Source: an uncultured Lentisphaeria bacterium (GTDB lineage: Bacteria; Verrucomicrobiota; Lentisphaeria; Victivallales; Victivallaceae). From it: a stretch of DNA of 36,098 bases. Positions 3 to 35,266 of this stretch are shown here, one piece after another. Made by a program: the position numbers and the translations under genes. Position 1 is the first letter of the stretch. Every line of letters starts with the position of its first letter. The notes beneath the pieces are model-generated. The model worked only from the letters and a program-made list of their open reading frames with translations, was not told the origin of the DNA and made no database searches. The stretch lies in NCBI GenBank assembly GCA_903831825.1, contig CAIKZE010000298.1:1-36098 (forward strand), given 5' to 3'.

Positions 3-575
3 GAAATGGGACTCTCGCTGAAACAGTTGGGACAGCTTGGCGCGATCGGTTCGGTGGCGGCGCTGGTAACGATGTATTTTACCGCGATCTTTGTGGACCG
101 CTGGCAGCCGATGCGGGTGAATACCTATATCGCAGTCTTTGGTCTGGTATCATGTTCGATGGGCTGGGTCTGGCCGTTCATCAACATTCCAGGCGACTGT
201 TATTTCTGGTTATGTTTGTCAACCATCCTGATCACCTCATTCCAGGGCGCTTTGGCCGGAGCCTGCGGATTCCCAATGTTGATGCGATTGTTCCCGCAGT
301 CCAGGTTCGGACAATTCTGCTCGGCCAATGCGCTGGTTGGCGCGCTGTTCAGGCTGCCGGCTGGAATGGCCGCAGGCTTTTTCATCGATATTGTCCGATA
401 TTATTGCAATGGCACAGACTATGCTTACCGGTTCCTGTTTGCCTGGACATTGCCTTTCAACGCAATCGCCGCCGGAATCGCGGTTTATCTCTCAGCACTC
501 GTTACTTTGAGGGAGAGAATGTCTTGGTGCAATCGCAAGTATAAATCCCTCCTTTTATTTGCCGACCGAGCCTGA
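3..575 (+). CDS. MFS transporter, C-terminal part, 3' end replaced by an insertion sequence
   Basis: The frame is open at the left edge, so the N-terminal half lies outside the window; the first ATG seen (base 6) is probably internal. The visible part is very hydrophobic and holds about five or six membrane segments, with short basic loops such as FVDRWQPMR and a late FPQSRFGQF loop, as in the C-terminal half of major facilitator superfamily carriers. The substrate cannot be told. Native coding sequence ends at base 530 (after Met-Ser-Trp-Cys); the last 14 residues, from Asn-Arg-Lys, are read from the inverted end of the insertion element. The last membrane helix appears complete, so the carrier might still work with an altered tail. 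No continuation of the gene is recognisable on the far side of the element. Confidence 0.7.
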   Translation, partial: EMGLSLKQLGQLGAIGSVAALVTMYFTAIFVDRWQPMRVNTYIAVFGLVSCSMGWVWPFINIPGDCYFWLCLSTILITSFQGALAGACGFPMLMRLFPQSRFGQFCSANALVGALFRLPAGMAAGFFIDIVRYYCNGTDYAYRFLFAWTLPFNAIAAGIAVYLSALVTLRERMSWCNRKYKSLLLFADRA

Positions 576-2697
576 ATTCAATTTTTTCCCCATTGAACGT
601 TGTGTCATTGCCGCCAGCCTGGTCGAGAAAAAGTTGAAATGCCTGCCTTACTTTTGGCTGAACAGTGATTGCTGGAAAAAGTTCAACGGTAATTTTTTCT
701 CTACCGATGGTCACAAAGCCCGGCGCCCTGGTCAGCGCTCTAAGCATGACGTGGTCATTTCTGAAATTGTTGTATAGCGGCCTGAATTTTTCAAATAGCC
801 CGAAGAAGATGTTTCTTGCTGAAATTTTCACAATGTCCATGTATTGTTTGGGCTCGGTATTGAGTTTTTGCGCACCGTTTTTAATCAGCTTGTCTTCTTT
901 TATGCACTTTTTCTCCATCAGCTTGATTGCTTTCGCGCTTTCCTTTATTTCCTCTTTCAACGTATTTATCCGCTGCCGTTCGCCGTTTTTCATACTGGTT
1001 GCCTTGCCGCCGCCGTTTTCTTTTTTTATGAGCAGTTCCATCAAGGTTTTATTCAGAGAGTTGAGCATGATTTTTTGCGAAATATACTCATCAGACCACG
1101 CCGTTTTTTCTATCAGGCTTTCTTTAAGGGAGCCGTAGTCTTCGAAATCATACGAGGTTATCTGGTTGATGCCGAAATGTCTGATTTCATAGAGGAAATC
1201 ATTTTCCTGTATCCAGCGCGAAAAGATGGCGGTGACAGTTTCCCGGGTGGTCATGTTTTTGTCGTTGACCAGAACTGACACCTCGATATCCTCTCTGTCG
1301 CCGCGGCTTGCCCGGACAATGATTCTGTCATATCCGGGGATTTTAGACGGATACCTGACACAATTGAAATCGCAGCTAACAGTGTCCTGAAAGTTATTGC
1401 GGTAACGGGTGATTTTGAAATGGCAGACGGGCAGTTTATCGCTCCAGCCGTCACGGGCATAACCTTTTTCCCAGGTGATGAGGGTGTCGCCATTGTCGTT
1501 GATCCGGCTTAAAACATCCTTGCCGTAGATGCCCCTGTCAATGACAAACACCAGCCGGCGGAGCGGGGCGGTCAGCGTTTGCGCGAACTCTGAAACCGTA
1601 ACGTGAAACCGCTCCCGCAGGTCGTAGTAATTGTCGAAACTTTTAAAGAAAACCGGATTGCCCGATGAGTCATGGATAAAATCCTGATAATACACTCTTG
1701 CTATTTTTCCTATGCTGCCGCACCAGCCCTTTAACAGTTTGCGGATTCCCGTATAAGGCACGCCGTGGGGATCGTAATAAAAATAACGATGCCTGTCAGC
1801 ATCGACAAACGCGGCATTGCGCCTGAACAGCAGTATCCGGTTATATTCCGTGCTGCCGGCCTTCAGTGCGCCGCGCTGATGACGCGGCGAGGTGAGAAAA
1901 TCCATCCCCGCAAGTTGCGCCAGCGAGCCAAAGTCCAGCCTCATGCTCTGTTCTATATTCACGGCCCCGAGCAGAACTGACATCAGCCACTGACGGCTCA
2001 GGCGCATCAGCGGCAATCCGGCGGTAAGCGTGAAAATAACAGGCAGAAACAACATGATCCCGGCATGATGGAGAAACACCCGTTCGCCGGATTCCGGCTC
2101 CGGGCGGCAGGGAATATGGTTGCGATTCTCAACCGCAGATGAACTCAAATCCGCCGGACAATCGCAAAGACCGTCCTTTTCAGCCGCTTTCTCAACCGCC
2201 GGAACCAGTTCTGAAAGCCGCGCCTTCTCTTCGTTGAATAGCGGACGCAGGGTTTCGGCGCTGAGCCGCGTTTGAAAATGTTCGCTGAGTTCGTCGCGAA
2301 TAATGCGGCTGTAGTTATACTGGTTGCCGCGATAAATCTCTTTGAACCGGCTGCGGACATACGAATTTATCTCCGCAGTCAGCTTACGCCGGTTCTCATG
2401 CCCGCCGTAAGCTGCTTCAATCTGCCGGAGTTCGCCGCTCTTCAGCGCAGTACCCCATTTCCGGATGGTCTTCAAATCCACACCGAAAGCTTCGACTAGC
2501 GCCTGACGCCGGTAACGCATGTTGTACAAACGACCCACCAGAAGTTTGAAATGAAAGGAGTTTTTCCCCTTCTCCACCTTCTCAAGCAGCGCCATCCCAA
2601 AATAAACCTCAAGCAATTCAGGATTATTTTCAGAAGAATAAATGGAAAATAACGGATTGTTCTTGTCAATTCCAAGGAACAGTTGTAAATTTGACAT
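502..2697 (-). CDS. DDE-type transposase of the insertion sequence
   Basis: A 731-residue transposase. The N-terminal region (about 45-160) contains helix-turn-helix-like segments (FGVDLKTIRKWG near 71-82) suited to binding the element ends. A plausible DDE core follows: Asp309 in YYDPHGVPYTG, Asp387 in FVIDRG and Glu498 in RWIQENDF. These fit the spacing of IS4/IS1634-like DDE enzymes, but assigning the catalytic residues is inference. Residues 570-610 are charged and helical. The first codon lies 77 bp inside the right inverted repeat. The frame runs through the left inverted repeat and ends 29 bp outside the element, so roughly the last nine residues (CTKTFSPSK) and the stop come from the target gene. 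I cannot name the IS family. Confidence 0.85.
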   Translation of the reverse strand: MSNLQLFLGIDKNNPLFSIYSSENNPELLEVYFGMALLEKVEKGKNSFHFKLLVGRLYNMRYRRQALVEAFGVDLKTIRKWGTALKSGELRQIEAAYGGHENRRKLTAEINSYVRSRFKEIYRGNQYNYSRIIRDELSEHFQTRLSAETLRPLFNEEKARLSELVPAVEKAAEKDGLCDCPADLSSSAVENRNHIPCRPEPESGERVFLHHAGIMLFLPVIFTLTAGLPLMRLSRQWLMSVLLGAVNIEQSMRLDFGSLAQLAGMDFLTSPRHQRGALKAGSTEYNRILLFRRNAAFVDADRHRYFYYDPHGVPYTGIRKLLKGWCGSIGKIARVYYQDFIHDSSGNPVFFKSFDNYYDLRERFHVTVSEFAQTLTAPLRRLVFVIDRGIYGKDVLSRINDNGDTLITWEKGYARDGWSDKLPVCHFKITRYRNNFQDTVSCDFNCVRYPSKIPGYDRIIVRASRGDREDIEVSVLVNDKNMTTRETVTAIFSRWIQENDFLYEIRHFGINQITSYDFEDYGSLKESLIEKTAWSDEYISQKIMLNSLNKTLMELLIKKENGGGKATSMKNGERQRINTLKEEIKESAKAIKLMEKKCIKEDKLIKNGAQKLNTEPKQYMDIVKISARNIFFGLFEKFRPLYNNFRNDHVMLRALTRAPGFVTIGREKITVELFPAITVQPKVRQAFQLFLDQAGGNDTTFNGEKIEFRLGRQIKGGIYTCDCTKTFSPSK

Positions 2698-4853: not shown

Positions 4854-5420
4854 ATGGCATTTACGACGCGCAAGAGTCTGCTGAGCAAGATAAAGCAGGG
4901 TGATGAAATCTCCTGGGAGGAGTTCTATGCCTCCTACCGCCCGTTGATCCTGCTGCGAGCCGGAGACTTGGGGTTGACGCAGACCGAAAAGGACGATCTG
5001 GTCCAGATCGTTATGTCGGAGTTCTTTAAAGGCAGCCGGGATTTTCAGTATGACCGCGGCAAGGGCAGGTTCCGAGACTATCTGAAATCCATTATCAATA
5101 ATCAGGCGATCAGCATATTGCGGAAACGCAAAAACTTGGAAGTAGGGCTGGATGACCGGGAGTTCAGCCTGGCGAACGGGCTGGAGCAAGCCTGGAATGA
5201 CGAATGGCAGGGTCATCTGCTGAATATGGCGATGGACGAATTGAAGAACTGCGTCGAGCCGGTCACCTACCAGGCGTTTGACCTTTATGCTATTCAGCGG
5301 CGGAAGAGTATCGAGGTCGCGGATTTTCTGGATATGTCCGTAAATTCCGTCTATGTCGCCAAGAACCGGTGTCTTGAACAGTTGAAAAAGATAATCGCTG
5401 ATGTCAGCGAAAGCGATTAG
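4854..5420 (+). CDS. ECF-type sigma-70 factor, planctomycete-like group
   Basis: A 188-residue alternative sigma factor. The N-terminus (FTTRKSLLSKIKQGDEISWEEFYASYRPLI) and region 2 (DDLVQIVMSEFFKG ... GRFRDYLKSIINNQ) resemble the sigma factors expanded in Planctomycetes and relatives. Region 4 (about 145-182) has the helix-turn-helix SIEVADFLDMSVNSVYVAKNRCLEQLKKI. It should direct RNA polymerase to a small regulon. AAAGG stands about 8 nt before the ATG. The next gene starts 11 bp downstream and encodes a small HxxxCxxC protein, the usual arrangement of an ECF sigma with a zinc-binding anti-sigma partner, and a Ser/Thr kinase follows convergently. The signal and target promoters are unknown. 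Confidence 0.88.
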   Translation: MAFTTRKSLLSKIKQGDEISWEEFYASYRPLILLRAGDLGLTQTEKDDLVQIVMSEFFKGSRDFQYDRGKGRFRDYLKSIINNQAISILRKRKNLEVGLDDREFSLANGLEQAWNDEWQGHLLNMAMDELKNCVEPVTYQAFDLYAIQRRKSIEVADFLDMSVNSVYVAKNRCLEQLKKIIADVSESD

Positions 5421-5696: not shown

Positions 5697-6818
5697 CTAC
5701 TGCTTTTGGGCGGGGCCGCTTTCGGTCGGAGAGCCGTTCATAATGAGGTTGACCAGAGGGTGTTCACCTTTATAGCCCTGATAAGCTCCAACCGCTATAT
5801 TGCTAACAGTGACTATCAGGCTGATTATGGAAAGGGTGATCCCCGCCGCTGCCAGCGCTTTATAGCGCCGGTTCAAACCGCTTATGCCTAAAAGCAATCC
5901 GGTTAATGCAAGCGGCAGGCCGACCGGTGGAATAAACCAGGCAAACAGTCCAATCAGCCCTAACACAAATGAAGCCTTCGCGGCCTTTCCACCTTTACGG
6001 GGCTGCTGATCAGTTACCGGGTATGCTGACTGGTTCAGGACTTGCCGGAACGCTGCGGCATCCATAAACCGGTCACCGGGATTGTCGCTGCATGCCTTCA
6101 GCAGAAAGAGGTTTACTGGTTTCAATGCTGGAGTGAACATGGCATCCGGCAACTTGGGAAATTCTTTGGCATCAAGTCCGGTCAACGCGCAGTAGATTAC
6201 CTTCCCCATTGCATAGAGGTCGATATTAAAATTATCCGCAGGCGTTCCGGAGTTGCCGCTGCTGCATTCTTTCGGGACAAAGCCGGGGGTTCCACCTGAA
6301 CTATGCGCGATCTGGGCAACCAGGCCGATATCGCTCAGCTTGGGGATGCCGCCGACAAAAATAATGTTGCCCGGTTTAATGTCATGATGGTTCAGCCCGC
6401 TTCTATGCAGCGATTCAAGCCCGTTGAGCAGCGGATTGATGATTTTTAAAACCGTTTCCAGCTTCATGCAGGATTTGTCCAGACGGTTGCTGAGCGTATC
6501 AGGACGGTAAGTTTTACAGTCAACATCCTGATTGTCCGCCAGTTCCATGGAATAGTAGAAATACGTTTCGTTCTCTTCCACATGATATATTTCCAGCAGA
6601 TTGGGATGCGAGGATATAACATGACGATAGTTTATGAGTCCGGCAAGTTCGTCCCGCCACCGTCCGGCGTCATCCTTGGAGATAATTTTGATGGCGACGC
6701 GTTTGCCGGTAAGTTTTTCCTCCGCCATCCACACTTCGCCATAAGCGCCGGAGCCGCAGCTCTGGATCAGGCGGCAGCCGTGAAAATTGTCCGGATCAAA
6801 CTTTGGACTACTATCCAT
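5697..6818 (-). CDS. Hanks-type Ser/Thr protein kinase with C-terminal membrane helices
   Basis: A 373-residue kinase. The start at 6818 (MDSSPKF) is preferred because a longer reading would need a TTG start and would add a hydrophobic segment before the P-loop; no strong ribosome site is visible for either. Kinase landmarks are GSGAYGEV (22-29), Lys44 in VAIKI, a candidate helix-C Glu57, the catalytic loop HHDIKPGNI (Asp146, Lys148, Asn151), and DIG (163-165) in place of DFG. HHD replaces HRD, as in many bacterial kinases. Residues about 285-355 hold three hydrophobic helices resembling a DUF4190-like module, so the kinase is membrane-tethered by its C-terminus. It faces the sigma/anti-sigma pair convergently, which suggests a shared signalling role. 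No extracellular sensor domain is seen. Confidence 0.85.
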   Translation of the reverse strand: MDSSPKFDPDNFHGCRLIQSCGSGAYGEVWMAEEKLTGKRVAIKIISKDDAGRWRDELAGLINYRHVISSHPNLLEIYHVEENETYFYYSMELADNQDVDCKTYRPDTLSNRLDKSCMKLETVLKIINPLLNGLESLHRSGLNHHDIKPGNIIFVGGIPKLSDIGLVAQIAHSSGGTPGFVPKECSSGNSGTPADNFNIDLYAMGKVIYCALTGLDAKEFPKLPDAMFTPALKPVNLFLLKACSDNPGDRFMDAAAFRQVLNQSAYPVTDQQPRKGGKAAKASFVLGLIGLFAWFIPPVGLPLALTGLLLGISGLNRRYKALAAAGITLSIISLIVTVSNIAVGAYQGYKGEHPLVNLIMNGSPTESGPAQKQ

Positions 6819-7008
6819 ACTACTGCAAACTTTCGTGTTTATGGTTACTTGTTGCCAGGTCTCCTCCGAGAACAGAACAATGGTTAAAACTATTGCAAAT
6901 ATCAGGAATGTCAAGGCTCGGGCAATGAATATTACGTAACACTTCCGACAAGATTGTCATCTTAATTTAAAAAAACAGGCGAGTGAGGCTGGTTATTAGA
7001 GGCATGTA

Positions 7009-8265: not shown

Positions 8266-8727
8266 TCATGAAATGCAATCATCCGTAGCCTCCATTTTTC
8301 CGGTTTCTCGAAAGCTGTAATATCCATTGCCGATAATAATGTGGTCGAGAATTTCAATCCCGATGATTTTACCGGCTTTCACCATGGCATCAGTCGTTTT
8401 GATGTCGTCGGATGACGGCTGGGTTGAGCCCGAAGGGTGGTTATGCGCCAATATGATTCTCGACGCCCCGGATAAAATTGCCTGACGAAAAACTTCGCGA
8501 CTGTGCGACTGGCTGGTATCGATCAAGCCAATGCAGACGGTGTAATACGCCTTGACGCTGTTCTTGACATCAAGAACCAGCACGATAAGGTTTTCCTGCT
8601 CTTCTTCATGCAGCCTGATTGCCTTCAGGAATCTGTAGGCATTCTGCGGCATGCTGAGCTTTTCACTCTCGCGGAACTCCATCACTTTGGTGCGTTTAAG
8701 GGAATAACGGTAAATTGATTTCTTCAT
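8266..8727 (-). CDS. radC: RadC-like JAB-domain protein
   Basis: A 153-residue protein that consists essentially of the RadC/JAB (MPN+) domain. The metal-binding pattern is present: HSREVFRQAIL, then the HxHPSG core LAHNHPSGSTQPSSDD with its later Asp. Chromosomal RadC is longer (about 220 residues, with an N-terminal helix-hairpin-helix region); this short form lacks that part and is the version usual on plasmids, prophages and ICEs. The biochemical role of RadC is unsettled, and a zinc-dependent hydrolase activity is only inferred from the fold. It lies within the mobile-type gene block. Confidence 0.85.
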   Translation of the reverse strand: MKKSIYRYSLKRTKVMEFRESEKLSMPQNAYRFLKAIRLHEEEQENLIVLVLDVKNSVKAYYTVCIGLIDTSQSHSREVFRQAILSGASRIILAHNHPSGSTQPSSDDIKTTDAMVKAGKIIGIEILDHIIIGNGYYSFRETGKMEATDDCIS

Positions 8728-8820: not shown

Positions 8821-9570
8821 TTATACGTCTATGGCTTGTCCATCCCAGAGTATTGACGGCTGGCCGTCCAGTCCGAACAGCCTGGTCAGCTTGCGTTGGC
8901 ATGTATCAGCCCGTGCCGGTGAATATTTTTTGGATACCTCGGTAAAGGCATTCAGGAAACTCCAGCGGCTGGGAGCCGCAAACTCTTCATGCCGGGGATG
9001 CTCGAACTCATTTAAGACTTCAAGAATATCGCATGAAGGAATTGCCCCCAGTTCCGCTGCCTGAACCGTGGCGATTCTGGCAACATCCGGAGTTACATCA
9101 TAGAGTTTGAGATTGTCAGCCTCCAGTTCCAGCGTGAAGAACTGCTCAACGAGCGTATCCAGCGCACCGGACACTAACGACATCAGGTCAATGCCTGACG
9201 TATGACGCCGCTTGATTACAACGGTTGAACCAAAACTCAAATTATCACAACAGAAGACCGATACCCCCGCAGCTAATCCGACCGCCAGACTCATGTCATG
9301 GCTGTTGCGCAGTCCAATCGCCCGGCTCCAATCCGGATGACTTGAATTGCCCAGGCGCATTACGCCAAAAAGTTTAGCGCCGTCGCGGCCTAACCCATAC
9401 TGTTCATTCGCAATCGTCCAACCGCGTGATTCCACAGCATTGGATACCATTTTGATAATCTCGTAGTGGGGAACCGGATGCCAAGATGCCGTACCGCTAG
9501 GGGTCGGCACCATGGCGATTTCTTCGCGGCCCACATACCTGGAACCGCAGTGCAATAATAGTTCTTTCAT
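8821..9570 (-). CDS. DUF932-like (phage/plasmid-type) protein
   Basis: A 249-residue protein with GAGGAG about 8 nt before its ATG. The order of motifs matches DUF932/TIGR03299-type proteins: SRYVGREEIAMVPTP near the start, NAVESRGWTIANEQYGLGRDGAKLFGVMRL, then GLRNSHDMSLAVGLAAGVSVFCCDNLSF (about 90-115), and a helical C-terminal half. These proteins are common on plasmids, phages and ICEs next to recombination and single-strand-DNA genes; their biochemical role is unknown. It is at the short end for the family. The next gene upstream, a RecB/Cas4-like nuclease, ends 24 bp away. Confidence 0.78.
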   Translation of the reverse strand: MKELLLHCGSRYVGREEIAMVPTPSGTASWHPVPHYEIIKMVSNAVESRGWTIANEQYGLGRDGAKLFGVMRLGNSSHPDWSRAIGLRNSHDMSLAVGLAAGVSVFCCDNLSFGSTVVIKRRHTSGIDLMSLVSGALDTLVEQFFTLELEADNLKLYDVTPDVARIATVQAAELGAIPSCDILEVLNEFEHPRHEEFAAPSRWSFLNAFTEVSKKYSPARADTCQRKLTRLFGLDGQPSILWDGQAIDV

Positions 9571-9594: not shown

Positions 9595-10425
9595 TTATGC
9601 AGCCATGCAAACATGCTTGACCGCGCTCTCCCGATGCCATTCCTTGCAGGCATTGGCGAACTGGCAGTCGCTGCAAATGAACGAGGTTTCCGCTGGCAGG
9701 AATACTTCTTTTTTCACGGCTCGTTCAATTGCGAGGGCAAGCAGGCTAAACCGATGAAGATCGTCCTTCGTCCGTTGCGTATAATGGTTTTCAAGACTTG
9801 GATTTTTGGTTTTGGTGACGACATCGAACCGGAAAGCTGGAATCGTGTCATGGTCTGCCTCCATTAAATAGGCAAAGGAAAACGCAGTTGCCTGAAAGTC
9901 CTTGTCGGCTTTGCTTTCTGACCAGCGCTGAGCAGATGTTTTCCAGTCCACGATAGTTGTGCCTTCGCCTTCCTTAATAACCATATCATACTCGCCAATC
10001 AAGGGCTTATTCAGGCCGGGAACGTTTACTTTGAACGCATGGGCGACGGAGACGATATTATCCCAGTCAATCCAACGCGCCAGCAATGCATCCAGCATGA
10101 ATCGGGCCTGTTCAATCAGGCTATTGATGCTTTCGCCATTCTTGAATACCAGATTGGAAGAAGCGGAACATTCAACTTTGAACCATTCTGCAAAAACTTC
10201 ATGCAGTTCAGGCAACGTCATCCGCTTGCCCTGCATGACATTCTTCGCGTGAGTGGTCGCGGCTGTGTGAAACGCCTTGCCAAACGGTAAGCTGGCAGAG
10301 GTTCGCTCCTGTTCCGTCTTATAAACGTATTGAAAAGCATACTTCAGCGAACACATATTGAGGTAAGTATTCAATGCGCTGTATGACCAGTGCGGCACTT
10401 CCCGCAGCTCCAGTATGGTAGCCAT
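9595..10425 (-). CDS. PD-(D/E)XK nuclease with Cas4/AddB-type iron-sulfur cysteines
   Basis: A 276-residue single-domain nuclease of the RecB-like superfamily. The PD-(D/E)XK core is visible: His53 (GKAFHTA), Asp147 (GEYDMVI), Asp160 and Lys162 (VDWKT), and Gln178 (DFQATAF). Four cysteines, Cys25 near the N-terminus and Cys251, Cys254 and Cys260 (ICSDCQFANAC), reproduce the split 4Fe-4S ligand pattern of Cas4 and AddB. A 5'- or 3'-directed DNA exonuclease activity is expected. There is no CRISPR array or other cas gene nearby; the neighbours (DUF932-like, beta-clamp-like) point to replication or recombination of a mobile element. GGAGG lies about 7 nt upstream. Confidence 0.85.
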   Translation of the reverse strand: MATILELREVPHWSYSALNTYLNMCSLKYAFQYVYKTEQERTSASLPFGKAFHTAATTHAKNVMQGKRMTLPELHEVFAEWFKVECSASSNLVFKNGESINSLIEQARFMLDALLARWIDWDNIVSVAHAFKVNVPGLNKPLIGEYDMVIKEGEGTTIVDWKTSAQRWSESKADKDFQATAFSFAYLMEADHDTIPAFRFDVVTKTKNPSLENHYTQRTKDDLHRFSLLALAIERAVKKEVFLPAETSFICSDCQFANACKEWHRESAVKHVCMAA

Positions 10426-10487: not shown

Positions 10488-10925
10488 TTATGCAGCTTTG
10501 GCGTTGCCGTTGAGTTCGTCAATCAGCCTGGAACATTCCACTTTGGTCAGCCGCTTCAGGTCAGTGACGCCAGCCTGTTCCAGAAGTTCGCCAGGCTTCA
10601 TGCCCTGAGTGCGGGCCAAGTCCAGCAAATAATTAATCTGTTTCGTGCTTGCCGGTATATTGTCCTGTTGTTTATTGCCGGAACTGCGTTTGCCCTGCGG
10701 ATAACGGATATGCTGTCTGCTTTCAGAGCCGTTCGACTGGACGTTGCCGATCTCAGCTTCAACGGATTCCCTGACCAGTTCAAAGGTGTCATGGATTTTG
10801 TCTTTGAGCTGTTTATCGGTCAAGCCGTCCGGCAATTCAGCCTCAATGGACGCATGGTAGCTCTGGGAACTGAACTCTTCATCTGCCGGAACCTTCTTTG
10901 AAAATGATGCATTAAGTTTCAACAT
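10488..10925 (-). CDS. Hypothetical protein with C-terminal SSB/recombinase-type tail motif
   Basis: A 145-residue protein. The ATG at 10925 is chosen because AGGAG lies about 8 nt upstream and the text before it belongs to another small frame. The N-terminal half (FSQ-type SYHASIEAELPDGLTDKQLKDKIHDTFELVRESVEAEI) is acidic and helical. A low-complexity linker follows, then a C-terminal module ASTKQINYLLDLARTQGM ... LTKVECSRLIDEL. That last motif recurs, as I recall it, in phage and plasmid DNA-recombination proteins as a small helical domain. Its exact function is unknown; its place between nuclease and clamp-like genes suggests DNA metabolism of the element. Confidence 0.65.
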   Translation of the reverse strand: MLKLNASFSKKVPADEEFSSQSYHASIEAELPDGLTDKQLKDKIHDTFELVRESVEAEIGNVQSNGSESRQHIRYPQGKRSSGNKQQDNIPASTKQINYLLDLARTQGMKPGELLEQAGVTDLKRLTKVECSRLIDELNGNAKAA

Positions 10926-11043: not shown

Positions 11044-11090
11044 CTTAAAAATAATTGAGCCTGCCCCCGGTATTATCGGAAGCAGGCTCA
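11044..11090 (-). terminator. Intrinsic terminator after the clamp-like gene
   Basis: On the minus strand, TGAGCCTGC and GCAGGCTCA (11082-11090 and 11056-11064) form a 9-bp stem, with a further CCG/CGG pair in the loop, followed by ATTATTTTTAA. Hairpin plus T-rich tract is typical of factor-independent termination. The ribosome site of the micro-protein begins directly after the T-tract, so read-through would feed the next genes. Confidence 0.65.
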
Positions 11091-11123: not shown

Positions 11124-12587
11124 TTAGAAGCCGGATACTTTCAGTTTCTCAATCGCTTCCCTTGCAACCTTCACGTTCCTTTCGCGCTGCTTGAAGCTGG
11201 TCTGCTGGTCGCGGATTTTACGGACTAAGTTGGAAGCCTGCTCGTTAATCGTGCGAATGGAACCGCGCAGTTCTTCAACTGATTGCAGCAGTTCATCGTA
11301 ACTGTCTGACTGGGTTGGTGCGGGAACGACCTTGAAGCCGTTGTTCGGAGCTTCCGGAATAACCGGTGCTTTTGCGGTTTCGGTTGTAGTGGTACTTGCG
11401 GCGGCGGTGTTGTTTTTCTGATTCATGGTTTCATTCTCCATTTTGTTGGTTTCTGGTTCATTGGTTTGGGGATTGGGTTCGTTATTCGGAATCGTAGCTG
11501 CATTCTTTATCGGCATGAAGACGAACTTGCCAAGACCGCCGGTTGCAACTACCGGGCAGGGAATTTTCGGATTATACGCAAAAATATGGTGTCCCAGCGA
11601 TAATGCCCTTATCAGCAACTTGCGGTTGACAAAAATTCCATCTTCCGGCAGTTGTCCTGTAACTCCGGATAAAGCGCATTCCGCTTTCTGCTCCGGATTA
11701 CAATCAGCAAGAGCCTCCAGTCTGTCTTCATTGGTCTTGAGTTGAAGCATGTACAGTGAATCCGTATTCGTCAGTTGCTTTAACGCCCCGGCAAACTGTT
11801 CTACTTTGGATTCGTCCAAGGCCATGCTGAACGACAGGCTTTCATCTTGAGGCACAATATGCCGCCAATTTGGATACGTTCCGGAAATGCATCTTGAAAT
11901 CCAAGTCCAGTCCGATACTTCAATAGTCGCCCAGGTATGAACACCATTCTGTGAAGTGCCGAATTTTGAAGGCATTGTCAGAAACTCCGCGGTAAACAGA
12001 CAGTCTGGAATCCGCAGTATGCAGCTATCATTTACCGGCAAATCATAAGGCACACAGCAAAGCTCTTTCCCATCGGTAGCCACAATTCCATCCTTGCTTA
12101 ACAGGATGCCCTTGAGTGCGGTTCTGGGGTCTGACGACGAAATGGACGGAACAACTTGGCTTAATGCCTGGATGAAATCAGCTTGCATAGAGAACAACGT
12201 TTCCGGACAAGGCGGCATTATCGGAAAGTCTTTTGCTTCCAGCGCAGGAAACTCCTGTTTTGAGGTTTGACTGTCGGCAAATTCTGTGATGATTACGCCG
12301 CCTGGGGTAAGCGGCTCTATCTGGAGCAATGCCCGTTTGTTGCCCTTTATGAAATTCCTTATCTCATTAATAGGCAGTAGCGCGTCCAAGCCTTCCGGAG
12401 CATCGGATACTTTGATCCGGCAGGTGAAGAACTCATCCAGATTGGTTACTGTCAGCGAGACGGTTTGCCGGTCAATGGTTTGCAGTTTGGCACACTTCAA
12501 TAACGGAAGCGTGGAGTTTCTGACCGGAGCGACTCTCGACAATACGATCAGTGTCCGGGCAAGTTCAGTTTTGTTGATTAAAAGCAT
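11124..12587 (-). CDS. DNA polymerase III beta-clamp-like protein with coiled-coil extension
   Basis: A 487-residue protein. Residues 1-362 follow the DnaN pattern: KTELARTLIVLSRVAPVRNSTLPLL (6-30), TVTNLDEFF (46-54), RTALKGILLSKDGIVATDGKEL (155-176), SGTYPNWRHIVP (235-246), and a terminal strand KFVFMPIKN (354-362) that matches the MPMRL end of bacterial clamps. The clamp would encircle DNA and tether a polymerase or nuclease. Beyond it come a Thr/Asn/Pro-rich linker (about 363-425) and a C-terminal coiled coil (430-483), which ordinary DnaN lacks. An in-frame ATG (residue 388) preceded by GGAG could restart translation of the tail alone. AGGAGG precedes the main start. It lies among mobile-element-type genes, so it is probably an element-borne clamp, not the host one. 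Confidence 0.75.
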   Translation of the reverse strand: MLLINKTELARTLIVLSRVAPVRNSTLPLLKCAKLQTIDRQTVSLTVTNLDEFFTCRIKVSDAPEGLDALLPINEIRNFIKGNKRALLQIEPLTPGGVIITEFADSQTSKQEFPALEAKDFPIMPPCPETLFSMQADFIQALSQVVPSISSSDPRTALKGILLSKDGIVATDGKELCCVPYDLPVNDSCILRIPDCLFTAEFLTMPSKFGTSQNGVHTWATIEVSDWTWISRCISGTYPNWRHIVPQDESLSFSMALDESKVEQFAGALKQLTNTDSLYMLQLKTNEDRLEALADCNPEQKAECALSGVTGQLPEDGIFVNRKLLIRALSLGHHIFAYNPKIPCPVVATGGLGKFVFMPIKNAATIPNNEPNPQTNEPETNKMENETMNQKNNTAAASTTTTETAKAPVIPEAPNNGFKVVPAPTQSDSYDELLQSVEELRGSIRTINEQASNLVRKIRDQQTSFKQRERNVKVAREAIEKLKVSGF

Positions 12588-12819: not shown

Positions 12820-13224
12820 TTACCGCTGAATGCTTAATTTCTGCTGGTCAACGATGTTTTGCAGCCATTGGTCAGCGAATTCAGTCAGTTCATGTTGCAG
12901 TTTCAGGTTTATCTGCGGCGCGGCGGCTTCCCTGTCACGGATGACTTCCTGGTCTACTCCGACATAATCGTTCCGGAAACTTAAAGGATAGAATTTGCTT
13001 TCCTTTAAGCCGAAGGTCATATCCGGATCGGCCATCAAGTCGCCGTTCTGCTTCCCATAATGCGATACGGAATAGACTTCTTCAAAACCGGAATGAGTGA
13101 ATACCCGTTCGACGATTACCGGCATGAAAGTACCAGAAGTGTTATCCAGTTTGAGATAACCTTTTGACATTAATGAAAGCAGATGCTGGAAGACTTTGGT
13201 CGAATGTTCGTTGATGCTGTGCAT
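12820..13224 (-). CDS. DUF6908-like protein
   Basis: A 134-residue soluble protein with AAGGACC before its ATG. The sequence GYLKLDNTSGTFMPVIVERV, then SVSHYGKQNGDLMADPDMTFGL and FYPLSFRNDYVGVDQEV, matches my recollection of the DUF6908 pattern found in plasmid and integrative-element genes. The C-terminus is helical (LKLQHELTEFADQWLQNI). The biochemical role is unknown. It is the second gene of the minus-strand block. Confidence 0.65.
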   Translation of the reverse strand: MHSINEHSTKVFQHLLSLMSKGYLKLDNTSGTFMPVIVERVFTHSGFEEVYSVSHYGKQNGDLMADPDMTFGLKESKFYPLSFRNDYVGVDQEVIRDREAAAPQINLKLQHELTEFADQWLQNIVDQQKLSIQR

Positions 13225-13440: not shown

Positions 13441-14154
13441 TCAGCCGAACATGGCTTCGGTGATGTTCGCCTGTTCCGGATTGTCGATCCGGTACAGTTT
13501 CGTATGTTTCCATTCGTTTCGTTCCCGGAGACACCGGATGTCGCGCTGCCAGACGGACTCGCTGACGGAATCTACGAGTATGGTATCACCCATGAACTTC
13601 CGGATGGCCTGTCCGATTTCCCGTTTTAACTGGACGATCCTCGCGGAAGTTACAGCCAGCCGTCTGGCAATGTCGCCGGTTCCGCCGCCGACCATCAGTT
13701 CTTCGACAATCGTGCGCTTCCTTGCGTCAAGGGTTACCATGAAGGCATCCCAGCCAATCTGCCGTAAAACTTTTGCCGCGATGTCTTCCGTCCTGGCTGC
13801 GATCATATCGCCGACAGTGAAGTCTTCATCCTCCCCGCCGACCGGAGCCTGCATTGAACAGACGGAGCCTTCATTATCCATCTGATAGCCGGGATTCATT
13901 ACGTCAGTGCGGTTATGCCCGTATGAACGTCTGCCACATTTGGTTCGCTGGATGCTATAGTACGCGATGCTGCTGGGAATCGGTTCTTTACCGGACTGCT
14001 CCATGGCGTCGAGCATTGCCGCCGCCGTGGCTGTGGTGTCCTGGATCAGCTCCTGGTAGTCTTCGGAGCCGATCGGTTTAGCCTTTCTGTGAACGGTGTT
14101 CCGGATAATGGGGTAGATCTGCATTTCGAGAATCAACGCTGCTGCTGGACTCAT
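13441..14154 (-). CDS. Sigma-70-like / helix-turn-helix regulatory protein of mobile-element type
   Basis: A 237-residue protein. The ATG at 14154 has GAGAGGTG 6 nt upstream and is preferred; the frame stays open to an ATG at 14274, which has no ribosome site but would add plausible residues (HSARLAAYYNERCN). The N-terminal half (ALILEMQIYPIIRNTVHRKAKPIGSEDYQELIQDTTATAAAMLDAME) looks like a divergent sigma region 2 and is followed by SIAYYSIQRTKCGRRSYG. The C-terminal part has a region-4-like helix-turn-helix, TIVEELMVGGGTGDIARRLAVTSARIVQLKREI. As first gene of the unidirectional block it may control it; whether it acts as a true sigma factor is untested. Confidence 0.65.
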   Translation of the reverse strand: MSPAAALILEMQIYPIIRNTVHRKAKPIGSEDYQELIQDTTATAAAMLDAMEQSGKEPIPSSIAYYSIQRTKCGRRSYGHNRTDVMNPGYQMDNEGSVCSMQAPVGGEDEDFTVGDMIAARTEDIAAKVLRQIGWDAFMVTLDARKRTIVEELMVGGGTGDIARRLAVTSARIVQLKREIGQAIRKFMGDTILVDSVSESVWQRDIRCLRERNEWKHTKLYRIDNPEQANITEAMFG

Positions 14155-14522
14155 ATTACACCTCTCGTTGTAATAGGCGGCCAGACGGGCAGAATGCACC
14201 CGCAGCGGCCGCCAATGTTGTTGGAGGCCGGGTGCGGCCGATAAGCACAGGGTAGAAGCTAAATTCTCTACCATGTATTATGCCCGGAAAATGAGTCTTT
14301 TTAAGCAGGTGATGGGAAAAGAGGTGCCAGTATTAATGCTTTCAATAGTTACGAAGCAGTGAGATAACCGATTACGAAGAATATAATACATCTTTGCGAT
14401 GGATATATTGAGCTTAGATATGCATAATAAAATGTTTCAAAAATGTTTCAATTTTTGTATTATTAGCCTGCGTTTGCAGTCCGTAGCAGGGGATAGCATA
14501 AACATTGTTTTGAGATAAAAAC
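14155..14522 (-). promoter_or_regulatory. Probable promoter region of the mobile-type gene block
   Basis: This 368-bp stretch precedes the whole minus-strand block. Apart from a possible N-terminal extension of the first gene (to 14274) it is non-coding and AT-rich. It holds a perfect tandem 11-bp repeat, AAATGTTTCAA twice (14430-14451). No terminator or second RNA gene is seen. Its role as promoter is inferred from position. Confidence 0.4.
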
Positions 14523-14598
14523 TGGAGCCAATGAACGGAATCGAACCGTTGACCTGCTCATTACGAGTGAGCTGCTCTACCGACTGAGCTACATTGGC
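14523..14598 (-). tRNA. tRNA-Thr (anticodon CGT)
   Basis: A complete 76-nt cloverleaf on the minus strand: acceptor arms GCCAATG and CATTGGC, D arm GCTC/GAGC, anticodon stem GCTCA/TGAGC with loop CTCGTAA (anticodon CGT, reading ACG), TpsiC stem AACGG/CCGTT with loop TTCGATT, discriminator T and encoded CCA. All stems pair perfectly. Its 3' end faces the mobile-type gene block. Confidence 0.97.
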
Positions 14599-31362: not shown

Positions 31363-32814
31363 ATGTTTGAACAGACTTTCAAGAATATCGACGACATTTT
31401 ACATAAAGACGCCGGATGCGGCAGCGAACTGGATTACGTGGAGCAAACCTCCTGGATTCTTTTCTTGAAATATCTGGACGATTTTGAAAAAGACAAAAAG
31501 ACTGCCGCCGAGCTCGCCGGACGGCCTTACACCCCGATTATCAGCAATGAATACCGCTGGAACGTCTGGGCTGCCCCAAAAAAGGACGGCAAACTTGATC
31601 ACCATGCCGCGCTCACCGGCGACGACCTCAAGGATTTCGTTGACCATAAACTGTTCCCCTATTTAAAGCAGTTCAAGGCCGATGCGGTAAGCCCGGACAC
31701 CATCGAATACAAAATCGGCGAGATTTTCAGCGAACTGAAAAACCGGCTTCATAGCGGCTATAACCTCCGCGAAATCCTCGATCTGATTGATGAACTGCGT
31801 TTTCAGTCGCGCGCGGAAAAACACGAGATGAGCCACCTGTACGAAGGCAAAATCCAGAACATGGGCAATGCCGGACGCAACGGCGGCGAATATTATACTC
31901 CGCGCCCGCTGATTAAAACTATTGTCAAAGTCGTCGCGCCGAAAATCGGACAGCGGATTTATGACGGCGCGGTCGGCTCGGCGGGCTTTCTGTGCGAAGC
32001 GTTTGAATATCTGAAAACCAGCAAGAACCTGACCACCGGCGACGCCGAAACTTTGCAGAAAAAAACGTTCTACGGCAAAGAGAAAAAGTCGCTGGCCTAC
32101 ATCATCGGCACCATGAACATGATTCTGCACGGCGTGGAAGCGCCGAACATCGTCCATACCAACACCCTTGCCGAAAACCTTGCCGACATCCAGGAACGCG
32201 ACCGCTACGACATAGTCCTGGCCAATCCGCCGTTCGGCGGCAAGGAACGCGCCGAAGTGCAGCAGAACTTCCCCATTAAAACCGGTGAAACCGCATTTCT
32301 TTTTCTACAGCACTTTATCAAGATTTTAAAAGCGGGCGGACACGCCGGCGTGGTCATCAAAAATACTTTCCTGTCCAATACCGACAACGCCTCGGTCAGT
32401 CTGCGCAAACTGCTGCTGGAAAACTGCAATCTGCATACCGTGCTGGATTTGCCGGGCGGCACTTTCACCGGGGCGGGAGTAAAAACAGTGGTATTGTTTT
32501 TTGAAAAAGGCGCGCCCACCCAAAAGGTCTGGTTTTACCAACTGAATCTGGATAGAAACCTGGGCAAGACCAATGCTCTGAGCGAAAAAGACCTGGCGGA
32601 ATTTGTCGAACTGCAAAAGACCAAAGCCGACAGCGAAAACTCCTGGACGGTAAATGTAAAAGACATTGACCAGACCACTTTTGACCTGAGCGCCAAAAAC
32701 CCCAACAAAAAAGCAGAAACCGCCTTGCGCAGCCCGGCGGCAATCCTCGACGAAATAAAAGCGCGGGATGCGGAGAGCGCGGAAATCCTGGAAACCATCC
32801 GGAGACTGATATGA
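31363..32814 (+). CDS. hsdM: Type I restriction-modification DNA methyltransferase subunit
   Basis: A 483-residue HsdM. The N-terminal helical domain (MFEQTFKNIDDILHKDAGCGSELDYVEQTSWILFLKYLDDFE) is followed by the N6-adenine methylase fold with GGEYYTPRPLIKTIVKVV, an S-adenosylmethionine-binding motif I in the form YDGAVGSAGFL, and the catalytic NPPF (DIVLANPPFGGKE). It methylates adenine in the site chosen by HsdS and is needed for both modification and restriction. AAAGG precedes the start. The stop overlaps the start of hsdS by four bases (ATGA). Confidence 0.95.
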   Translation: MFEQTFKNIDDILHKDAGCGSELDYVEQTSWILFLKYLDDFEKDKKTAAELAGRPYTPIISNEYRWNVWAAPKKDGKLDHHAALTGDDLKDFVDHKLFPYLKQFKADAVSPDTIEYKIGEIFSELKNRLHSGYNLREILDLIDELRFQSRAEKHEMSHLYEGKIQNMGNAGRNGGEYYTPRPLIKTIVKVVAPKIGQRIYDGAVGSAGFLCEAFEYLKTSKNLTTGDAETLQKKTFYGKEKKSLAYIIGTMNMILHGVEAPNIVHTNTLAENLADIQERDRYDIVLANPPFGGKERAEVQQNFPIKTGETAFLFLQHFIKILKAGGHAGVVIKNTFLSNTDNASVSLRKLLLENCNLHTVLDLPGGTFTGAGVKTVVLFFEKGAPTQKVWFYQLNLDRNLGKTNALSEKDLAEFVELQKTKADSENSWTVNVKDIDQTTFDLSAKNPNKKAETALRSPAAILDEIKARDAESAEILETIRRLI

Positions 32815-34208
32815 AACAATACCATGGGAATACACTTGGGATTTCCTCCGGGAACGCCACTCTCCGCAGTGGCATGGGTTTGCCTGGGAACGCCACTCTC
32901 CGTAGTGGCGAAGGCTCTACCCCGGGAACGCCACTCTCCGTAGTGGCAGAGGAGAAAAAAGCCAAACATGCCAATCGGGAGATTGGCGATCCCAGGTTTG
33001 GGAAAAAAGCAAAACATGCCAATCGGGAGATTGGCGATCCCAGGATGGGATGGAAAATAAAGAAGCTGGGGGAAGTGTGTGAGTTTGAAAAAACACCAAA
33101 AAAACAAAAACAACTCCCATATGTCGGATTAGAAGACATTGAATCAAACACAGGATTATTTCTTGGATCCTATGAACCGGCTGATGTAAAGAGTTTAACA
33201 TTCCAATTTGATGATTCACATATTTTATATGGTCGTTTGCGCCCATATCTAAATAAAGTTTTAAAACCAGATTTTACGGGGCATTGTTCAACAGAAATAT
33301 TTCCAATAAAACCACTTAAAACTATTGATAGAAATTATTTATTCCATTGGTTTTTATCTGACTCTGTTGTTAATAAGATCAATGCTACTTGTACAGGTGC
33401 GAGAATGCCTCGTGCCAATATGAATGAAGTATTGGATTTTTCCATCCCCATCCCGCCACTCCCGGAACAACAACGCATCGTAGCCATCTTGGATGAAGCC
33501 TTTGCCGCCATCGCCAAAGCAAAAGCCAATGCCGAACAAAACCTCAAAAACGCCAAAGAACTCTTTGAGAGTTATTTGCAATCGGTGTTTGAGAATGGGA
33601 ATTGGGAAGAAAAAAGAATTCAGGACATCGCTAAAGTTATCAATGGTTACGCTTTTTCAAGTAAAGACTTCAAACCGACCAATGCGATAAAATCGATTAA
33701 AATTACGAATGTTGGAGTTAAAGAGTTTGTTGAAGAAATTGGCAATTATCTACCAGAACAATTCAAAGACACATTAAAAGAAGTTCAAGTCAAAGAAGGG
33801 AATATTGTAATAGCATTGACAAGGACAATTATTTCAGCAGGGTTAAAAGTTGCTGTTGTTCCAAAGAGCTATGATGGAGCTTTGGTAAATCAGCGCGTAG
33901 CAGCATTGGTGGCAAATGAGAAATTAATCAATCAAAGATATCTGTATAATTTCCTTACAACTGATGGAGTTGCTAAATATGTTTTAGCGCATGTAAATAC
34001 TTTGATGCAGCCAAATCTTTCAATCAATGATTTGAAAAACCTAATAGTTCCTTGTCCTTCATTTAAAGAACAGCAAGAAATTGTAAACAAACTCGATGGG
34101 CTAAGAAACGAAACCAAAAGATTAGAAGCAATTTACCGGCAGAAAATCGAAGATTTGGACGAGCTGAAAAAAACGATCTTGAATAAAGCGTTTAAGGGGG
34201 AATTATGA
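32811..34208 (+). CDS. hsdS: Type I restriction-modification specificity subunit with repeat-derived N-terminus
   Basis: A 465-residue HsdS. From about residue 80 it is normal: a first target-recognition domain (GWKIKKLGEVCEFE ...), the central conserved helix (PPLPEQQRIVAILDEAFAAIAKAKANAEQNL), a second recognition domain (NGNWEEKRIQDIAKVINGYAFSS ...), and a C-terminal helix (CPSFKEQQEIVNKL ... [10 protein letters not shown]). The first 78 residues are translated hairpin repeats: two GNATLRSG, one repeat in another frame (PGTPLSVVA) and two ANREIGDP. The start at 32811 overlaps the hsdM stop and has GGAG upstream, so the repeats lie after the native start. A later ATG at 33045 lacks a ribosome site. 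The recognition domains are AT-richer than the flanking genes. Confidence 0.9.
   Translation: MKQYHGNTLGISSGNATLRSGMGLPGNATLRSGEGSTPGTPLSVVAEEKKAKHANREIGDPRFGKKAKHANREIGDPRMGWKIKKLGEVCEFEKTPKKQKQLPYVGLEDIESNTGLFLGSYEPADVKSLTFQFDDSHILYGRLRPYLNKVLKPDFTGHCSTEIFPIKPLKTIDRNYLFHWFLSDSVVNKINATCTGARMPRANMNEVLDFSIPIPPLPEQQRIVAILDEAFAAIAKAKANAEQNLKNAKELFESYLQSVFENGNWEEKRIQDIAKVINGYAFSSKDFKPTNAIKSIKITNVGVKEFVEEIGNYLPEQFKDTLKEVQVKEGNIVIALTRTIISAGLKVAVVPKSYDGALVNQRVAALVANEKLINQRYLYNFLTTDGVAKYVLAHVNTLMQPNLSINDLKNLIVPCPSFKEQQEIVNKLDGLRNETKRLEAIYRQKIEDLDELKKTILNKAFKGEL
32850..33041 (+). repeat. REP-like cluster 1 inside hsdS (A A A B B)
   Basis: A copies start at 32850, 32886 and 32924; B copies at 32970 and 33018, each 24 nt. 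A is GGGAAC followed by the stem GCCACT, loop CTCCGC (or CTCCGT) and stem AGTGGC. B is the stem GCCAATC, loop GGGA and stem GATTGGC, followed by GATCCC. The third A copy is out of phase by 2 nt and is brought back by the 46-nt step to B, so the hsdS frame survives. Confidence 0.95.
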
Positions 34209-35266
34209 AGCATATCTCCCATCCTGGGAACGCCACTCTCCGCAGTGGCATGGATTCTCCCGGGAACGCCACTCTCCGCAGTGGCGAAAGCAAATATGCC
34301 AATCGGGAGATTGGCGATCCCGTGGTAAATTCTGCCAATCGGGAGATTGGCGATCCCGGGGTTAAAACTGCCAATCGGGAGATTGGCGATCCCGTGGTAA
34401 ATCCCGGAGTTGCCAACCAATGGCACAGCCGGGGATATTTGCCGCATTTCGACAACGCGGCCGCGATACAGCACGTTACATTTCATCTTGCTGACAGTCT
34501 GCCGGAAAGTGTGCTGGTGCGTCTGGAGCAGGAGATTCGCTGCCTGCCGTCGGAAATACAGGATGCGGAGCGGCGGAAACGGCGGGATGCCTGGATAGAC
34601 GCAGGGCACGGTTCATGTATTATGCGGGAGCCGCCGGTAGCGCGGATAGTGCAGAATGCTTTCCTTTTCTTTGATGGTCAGCGTTACAGGCTTTTAGCAT
34701 GGGTGGTGATGCCGAACCATGTGCATGTTTTATTTCAGCCGGTCAACGGCTGGACTGTGGCAAAAATTGTGGCATCGTGGAAGAAATTCACCGCGACTAA
34801 AATCTGCTCTCCCGCTCTCCCCGGGAACGCCACTCTCCGCAGTGGCGAAAGCAAAACTGCCAATCGGGAGATTGGCGATCCCAGGGTTAATCCCGGAGTA
34901 AATCCCGGGTTTGGGATTAAATCTCCGGTTTGGCATCGGGAATACTGGGATCGTTTCATCCGGGACAGCCGGCATTATGAGCAGGCAGTGGAGTATATTC
35001 TCCAGAATCCGGTAAAAGCGGGCTTGGCCGCAACAGCAGCAGAATGGCCGTGGAGCAGCGCCAGTTTTAGTGGCATGGATTCTCCCGGGAACGCCACTAC
35101 TCCCGGGAACGCCACTCTCCGTAGTGGCAAATCTAATTCAGCCAATCGGGAGATTGGCGATCCCAGGGGTAAAACTGCCAATCGGGAGATTGGCGATCCC
35201 GGGTTAAAAACTGCCAATCGGGAGATTGGCGATCCCAGGGTAAAAACTGAAAAAACGATAGTTTAA
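34205..35266 (+). CDS. REP-associated tyrosine transposase (RAYT, Y1 family) containing its own repeats
   Basis: A 353-residue protein whose RAYT part is [10 protein letters not shown]...[13 protein letters not shown] (73-100), the HUH motif [11 protein letters not shown] (169-179, His172 and His174), [10 protein letters not shown] (191-200), then [33 protein letters not shown] (242-274, with likely catalytic Tyr264) and EWPWSSAS (280-287). RAYTs of this type cut single-stranded REP hairpins. Three sets of repeat-encoded peptides interrupt or flank it: 8-62, 207-226 in a loop of the catalytic domain, and about 295-344. The start overlaps the hsdS stop (ATGA). Whether the enlarged enzyme is active is unknown. 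Confidence 0.9.
34226..34393 (+). repeat. REP-like cluster 2 at the 5' end of the RAYT gene (A A B B B)
   Basis: A copies start at 34226 and 34262; B copies at 34298, 34334 and 34370. All steps are exactly 36 nt, so each copy begins at a codon boundary of the RAYT frame and reads GNATLRSG or ANREIGDP. Confidence 0.95.
34823..34882 (+). repeat. REP-like cluster 3 inside the RAYT catalytic domain (A B)
   Basis: One A (34823) and one B (34859), 36 nt apart and in frame, lie between the SWKKFTATK helix and the VWHREYWDR segment, which are normally joined by a short loop. Confidence 0.95.
35087..35236 (+). repeat. REP-like cluster 4 at the 3' end of the RAYT gene (partial A, A B B B)
   Basis: A half copy of A (GGGAACGCCACT, 35087-35098), a full A at 35105 and B copies at 35141, 35177 and 35213 follow the natural end EWPWSSAS of the transposase. 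All are in frame. The spacer ATGGATTCTCCC before the half copy is also found between the two A copies of cluster 2, suggesting the clusters were copied from each other. Confidence 0.95.

Follow-up and report, generated by a model that had tools for sequence, protein, structure and literature searches.

A DnaN-like clamp extended by a coiled coil, and its conserved, probably used internal start, in tRNA-targeted integrative elements of Lentisphaerota and related bacteria

The window, i.e., the whole stretch of 36,098 nucleotides that was analysed (contig CAIKZE010000298.1), carries on its minus strand a gene for a DnaN-like clamp which is extended by a linker and a coiled-coil tail. In the linker an in-frame ATG follows a Shine-Dalgarno motif, and from this ATG the tail could be translated separately. 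The following features were assigned, all on the minus strand; the evidence is given in parentheses.

8266–8727 (-): RadC-like JAB domain protein (PF04002, E 3e-38)
8821–9570 (-): DUF932 protein, fourth gene of the cassette (PF06067, E 3e-13)
9595–10425 (-): PD-(D/E)XK nuclease, RecB/Cas4/exonuclease-like, third gene (PF12705, E 5.5e-23; PHROG 69 exonuclease)
10488–10925 (-): C2 family protein, 145 aa, conserved next gene (beta-hairpin plus helix, three-helix C-terminal domain)
11056–11090 (-): terminator-like hairpin right after the stop of the clamp-tail gene (14-bp stem, T-rich tail)
11124–12587 (-): full-length clamp-linker-tail gene, 487 aa (list of open reading frames, homologues)
11505–12587 (-): DnaN-like three-domain clamp, residues 1–361 (AlphaFold2, Foldseek, PDB profile, PHROG 947)
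11307–11504 (-): disordered linker rich in Pro, Thr, Asn and Gln, residues 362–427, containing the internal start (pLDDT < 50 at 365–428)
11127–11306 (-): coiled-coil tail, residues 428–487, a single unbroken helix (AlphaFold2, heptad periodicity)
11436–11439 (-): Shine-Dalgarno motif GGAG, 9-nt spacer to Met388 (sequence, family comparison)
11424–11426 (-): putative internal start codon ATG, Met388 (counterpart found in 48 of the 50 members of the family)
11124–11426 (-): predicted free-tail protein from the internal start, 100 aa (sequence comparison)
12820–13224 (-): DUF6908 protein, upstream of the clamp (PF21849, E 6e-32)
13441–14274 (-): C10, upstream gene with a weak sigma-factor-like match (PHROG 351, E 3e-7)
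14523–14598 (-): tRNA-Thr(CGT), likely integration site (from tRNA-bounded relatives)

The usual order of the cassette is clamp, C2, PD-(D/E)XK nuclease and DUF932 protein; near the clamp, the nuclease was found in 24, C2 in 23 and DUF932 in 22 of 36 loci, and C10 is common to the window and three related loci. The N-terminal domain of C2 is very conserved (MLKLNASYSKKVP...YSSQSYHASIEVEL). Comparisons of C2 with Pfam, NCBIfam and the PDB yielded nothing of note, and a Foldseek search with its model gave no significant match. No canonical clamp-binding motif was conserved in the neighbours, including the cassette nuclease and C2. The hairpin that separates the clamp-tail gene from C2 is strong, and the downstream genes may use readthrough or a promoter of their own. 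Elsewhere in the window, a Sigma-70 region 2 protein (4854–5420, plus strand) adjoins a serine/threonine kinase with a DUF4190-like tail (5697–6914, minus strand); the kinase resembles PADLOC kinase models, and the sigma-70 and kinase clusters are both found again close to the clamp at three further loci. Genes for a type I restriction-modification methylase and specificity subunit, with one for an IS200-like (Y1) transposase-domain protein after them, occupy 31363–35266 on the plus strand, and a 731-aa protein at the contig's left edge (502–2697, minus strand) showed a weak Transposase_29 match.

From the sequence alone, the first-pass annotation had proposed a DnaN-like clamp of 362 residues followed by a Pro/Thr linker and a coiled coil, and this architecture was borne out in all three parts. 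The AlphaFold2 model, a monomer prediction with an alignment of 19 relatives as input, contains all three clamp domains at a pLDDT of about 90, with FMPI (residues 357–360) as the end of the clamp part, then disorder at residues 365–428 and one helix at 429–486. With the clamp model Foldseek retrieved DnaN (E 1.9e-22, TM 0.77 on target length). DnaN chains were also found by a single-sequence search against the PDB (E 3e-9), and the family profile matched PDB DnaN over 348 positions, i.e., nearly the whole clamp (E 3e-24). Among the family libraries the nearest match to the clamp was PHROG 947 (E 3e-29, residues 3–272); none of the Pfam clamp models matched the protein. The score against the DnaN equivalog TIGR00663, 49.9 bits, lies below the cut-off of 137.65. 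Since the clamp fold is present while the score stays under this cut-off, the protein should be regarded as clamp-like and not as DnaN itself. It is also not the ordinary DnaN of the host, which is encoded on a separate contig of the same genome and has no tail. The partner-binding cleft of DnaN includes T172, G174, L177, P242 and M362 (E. coli numbering); in the alignment to the P. aeruginosa clamp these cleft residues are kept, and H175 is replaced by K and R176 by E or Q.

The hydrophobic periodicity of the tail has its peak at 103 degrees per residue, a value not attained in any of 2000 permutations, and of the a/d positions 80% are hydrophobic, compared with 25% of the other positions. 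Pfam searches with the tail alone gave generic coiled-coil matches only. Clamp fold and coiled coil of the window protein are thus near certain. The tail had been considered an addition to the clamp; however, it is not peculiar to the window protein, and across the family it is the best-conserved part, with a mean pairwise identity of 42%, compared with 31% for the clamp and 27% for the linker.

The genes for clamp-tail proteins are borne by integrative elements which target tRNA genes, as is evident from attachment repeats and integrases in the relatives. One element of 18.6 kb (G053:C14, 218–18801) is bounded by a 21-bp repeat of the 3' end of tRNA-Lys, with an integrase adjoining the tRNA; its GC content is 44%, versus 57% outside, and it carries glycosyltransferase cargo. 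Another of 25.7 kb (G033:C9, 133621–159335) is bounded by a 22-bp repeat of the 3' end of tRNA-Asn, again with an adjoining integrase. Two more integrases lie within 3 kb past this latter element (133621–163395; L194, L195), which suggests tandem insertions. Tyrosine integrases, D5/PriCT-2 primases, PIF1 helicases and G2P/YagK-like replication proteins recur around the cassettes, and by manual count an integrase was present at a distance of 20 kb or less from the clamp in 8 of 23 copies, from six genomes. In the window, the cassette begins about 250 bp past the 3' end of tRNA-Thr; no attachment repeat for this copy was found over the 14.5 kb up to the end of the contig, and an integrase was not seen anywhere in the window. 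The mobile-element location which had been suggested for the window gene agrees with these relatives.

Tail-bearing homologues were found in 50 of 137 Victivallales genomes, mostly in one to four copies, with a maximum of ten. Victivallis vadensis DSM 14823, an isolate, is among the carriers, as are many Lentisphaerota MAGs. More distant homologues turned up less often, in Verrucomicrobia MAGs, one Planctomycetes MAG and one Desulfomonile MAG, and these rare assignments may be due to misbinning. Scans of IMG/VR viral contigs with two alignments gave no homologue, and matches in INPHARED were to the clamp only, all < 30%. Some copies are decayed (L161, L158, L159, L163), with most or all of the clamp gone and the linker/tail left with motif and ATG; tail-less clamps exist as well (L069, L088). 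Two apparent natural split genes (L043, L041) were rejected as damaged copies, showing an in-frame TGA and a rearrangement, and the short tail ORFs inspected were remnants, deletions or contig ends.

A possible internal start, GGAG at 9 nt before Met388 with the start at position 11426, had been pointed out in the first-pass annotation, and the coordinates were confirmed. The family lends it stronger support than a single sequence could have provided. Nearly all members possess an in-frame linker ATG after AGGAG, AAGGA, GGAG or a near variant; the motif of the window copy is the short GGAG. Shine-Dalgarno motif and in-frame ATG were present in 48 of 50 dereplicated members, with spacers mostly of 8–9 nt, and at 50% identity the internal start persists in 24 of 25 clusters, far beyond chance. 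In the first set, defined by < 85% identity, all 36 members have it. When the linker codons of these 36 were shuffled 2000 times, on average 3.6 and at most 11 members showed the feature, and in 500 redraws of synonymous codons with the protein kept fixed the mean was 21.9 and the maximum 31; since the members share ancestry, these counts are not probabilities, and the cluster count and the shifts in position serve as a guard. Such shifts are seen: the Met is spread over several alignment columns and moves jointly with the motif, Met388 being used by the window copy and its nearest relatives, and the column equivalent to Met383 by most others. Members found later gave the same picture, with an internal start in all six from the order, one of which was missed by the script and carries cAGGAGaaaaaagttATG, and in six of eight further distant members. 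As a yardstick, the motif precedes the primary clamp start in 38 of 42 cases and the start of the following gene in 21 of 21, compared with only 35 of 357 in-frame ATGs within the clamp. The internal start is also predicted to lie among the least structured mRNA stretches of the gene, although an A-rich linker would be unstructured regardless.

Translation from the internal start would therefore appear very likely on these comparative grounds. The linker varies in length from 19 to 92 codons and yet is open and in frame throughout, which argues that the fusion must be made too. Taken together, the conserved internal start and the retained fusion are most simply read as two products, so that two proteins very probably arise from the gene, the clamp-tail protein and a free coiled-coil tail; the predicted length of the latter ranges from 60 to 131 aa across the family. 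Two divergent proteins (L191, L192), in which the clamp is present and the tail matches more weakly, have no internal start, which is thus not indispensable to the clamp-tail fusion. They are the most divergent of the clamp-tail proteins and could help to tell a gain of the internal start from a loss.

As to function, it is rather probable in our opinion that clamp-tail protein and free tail act together in the tRNA-targeted element, as products of a gene within a gene. From a single mRNA the full-length clamp would be made and, via the Shine-Dalgarno motif and ATG of the linker, the free tail. The full-length clamp dimer, a ring, would bear two long, flexible coiled-coil arms on its C-terminal face; in DnaN this is the partner-binding face. 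Free tails could pair with clamp-borne tails, as SctQ-C does with SctQ, or with one another, and the ratio of short to long product would set the number of paired arms. The clamp might thereby gather the DNA-processing proteins of the element during its replication or recombination, the obvious candidates for partners being the cassette nuclease and C2. Both the role of the cassette in element replication or recombination and, by analogy, the co-assembly of free tail and clamp-tail protein are what we infer. More tentatively, there could be a new class of two-product clamps in elements of the PVC group, in which the tails co-assemble with the free tail and perhaps link rings, or load element-specific nuclease and recombination proteins without the customary clamp-binding peptide. 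Recruitment of partners by the coiled coil, and with it a distinct replication strategy, had been envisaged for the window gene; both may hold, but replication is not singled out by the neighbourhood, since nuclease, DUF932 protein and C2 fit recombination equally well.

The free tail could instead be an inhibitor, made from the same internal start, which caps the clamp tails and prevents tail-to-tail bridging or a toxic tethering of host DNA. This is the architecture of RpnL/RpnS (PMC10327210), and the decayed copies L161, L158 and L159, in which a linker/tail piece with motif and ATG survives while little or none of the clamp does, are also in its favour. Such copies are few, however, and mostly damaged, tail-less clamps exist too, and there is no sign of clamp toxicity; we consider an inhibitor unlikely.

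A quite different explanation would be that only the full-length protein matters and that Shine-Dalgarno motif and Met represent a peptide motif (E-E/K-E-x-x-M-E) or a ribosome pause site. Glu379 was indeed invariant in the first alignment of 19 sequences, and the Met in a subgroup of 13 sequences. Against a peptide motif, the residues vary (KEE, QEE, TEE, KEK, NKE) while AGGAG is constant, the synonymous redraws destroy the feature in about 40% of members, and the joint movement of Met and motif was mentioned above. Moreover, the preference for GAG is confined to the motif window, where it makes up 30 of 56 Glu codons, versus 19 of 143 in the rest of the linker (p 2e-8). For a pause, an ATG at 8–9 nt would be unnecessary. 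This explanation is therefore improbable.

The internal start might also be a relic of an operon of clamp and coiled-coil genes which were fused by loss of a stop codon, the free tail having no separate role. The arrangement is precisely what an in-frame junction of two genes would give, and some pieces of motif plus tail stand alone (L158, L161); however, intact separate genes for clamp and tail were not found in any relative, and a useless site should have decayed in an unconserved linker, whereas it is kept in nearly all clusters. We think that a relic is very improbable. The small genes after the clamps of Rhizobium phages were considered as a split-gene ancestor and rejected, as they are not coiled-coil-like. 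That the window gene encodes a common phage-type clamp, the tail being decorative and the Shine-Dalgarno/ATG due to chance, can hardly be maintained, although among the family libraries phage clamps (PHROG 947) match it best, since the shuffle tests and the later samples oppose chance, the tail is conserved better than the clamp, and the clamp of phage 16-3 ends without such a tail.

Sliding clamps usually gain their partners via short peptides, which are bound in a common cleft. Coiled-coil arms on a clamp and additional arms from the same gene would mean a different control of the clamp's cargo, and a gene-within-a-gene case conserved over deep divergence would be added to those described. 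As the clamp-tail gene is present in a cultured isolate, these ideas are directly testable.

With DnaN (TIGR00663; structures from E. coli and P. aeruginosa) the window protein shares the three-domain fold, the length of the clamp, the cleft strands T-[DN]-G-x-x-L and YP-W-x-x-[VI]-x-P and the terminal MP. Unlike DnaN, the clamps of this family possess a linker and coiled-coil tail of about 125 residues with an internal start, and they reside in mobile elements, the host DnaN being present as well. E. coli dnaN reportedly gives a shorter, UV-induced form, in which clamp domains are retained. We know of no sliding clamp for which a separate tail product from an internal start has been described, and an earlier report of such a clamp was not found in the literature searched, which consisted of open-licence papers. 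Among phage clamps (PHROG 947), those of Rhizobium phages 16-3 and RHph_X2_25 were compared, and neither a tail gene nor an internal start was seen; p081 of phage 16-3 stops directly after the clamp, unlike the tailed family, while in RHph_X2_25 the clamp is also near a RecB-type exonuclease, as in the cassette. The order at the RHph_X2_25 locus (L125) is clamp, small Cys-containing protein, RecB-type exonuclease and sigma factor, resembling a parallel, tail-less cassette. A plasmid dnaN beside PRTRC genes (Azospira pAZI09) is likewise a DnaN-like gene of a mobile element; it is annotated with 375 aa, which leaves no room for a coiled-coil tail, and its neighbourhood differs.

The nearest models for two products from one gene come from unrelated proteins. 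In the C-ring of type III secretion, one gene yields full-length SctQ and, from an internal start, the C-terminal product SctQ-C, which binds full-length SctQ and is required for assembly (PMC4295842); in our case the long form is a DNA clamp and the short one would be a coiled coil. In Cas10d/Cas11d and Cas8b/Cas11b, an internal in-frame start provides the small subunit of a DNA-acting complex (PMC11899642), with proteins and function different from those of the clamp-tail gene. In RpnL/RpnS, a C-terminal oligomerisation domain is separately translated inside the gene of a mobile DNA-acting protein, and RpnS blocks the long form RpnL (PMC10327210); Rpn is a toxic nuclease, whereas the clamp-tail protein has no nuclease and no known toxicity. 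By analogy, SctQ/SctQ-C and Cas11 would thus be models for a free tail which helps its long form, and RpnL/RpnS for one which inhibits it.
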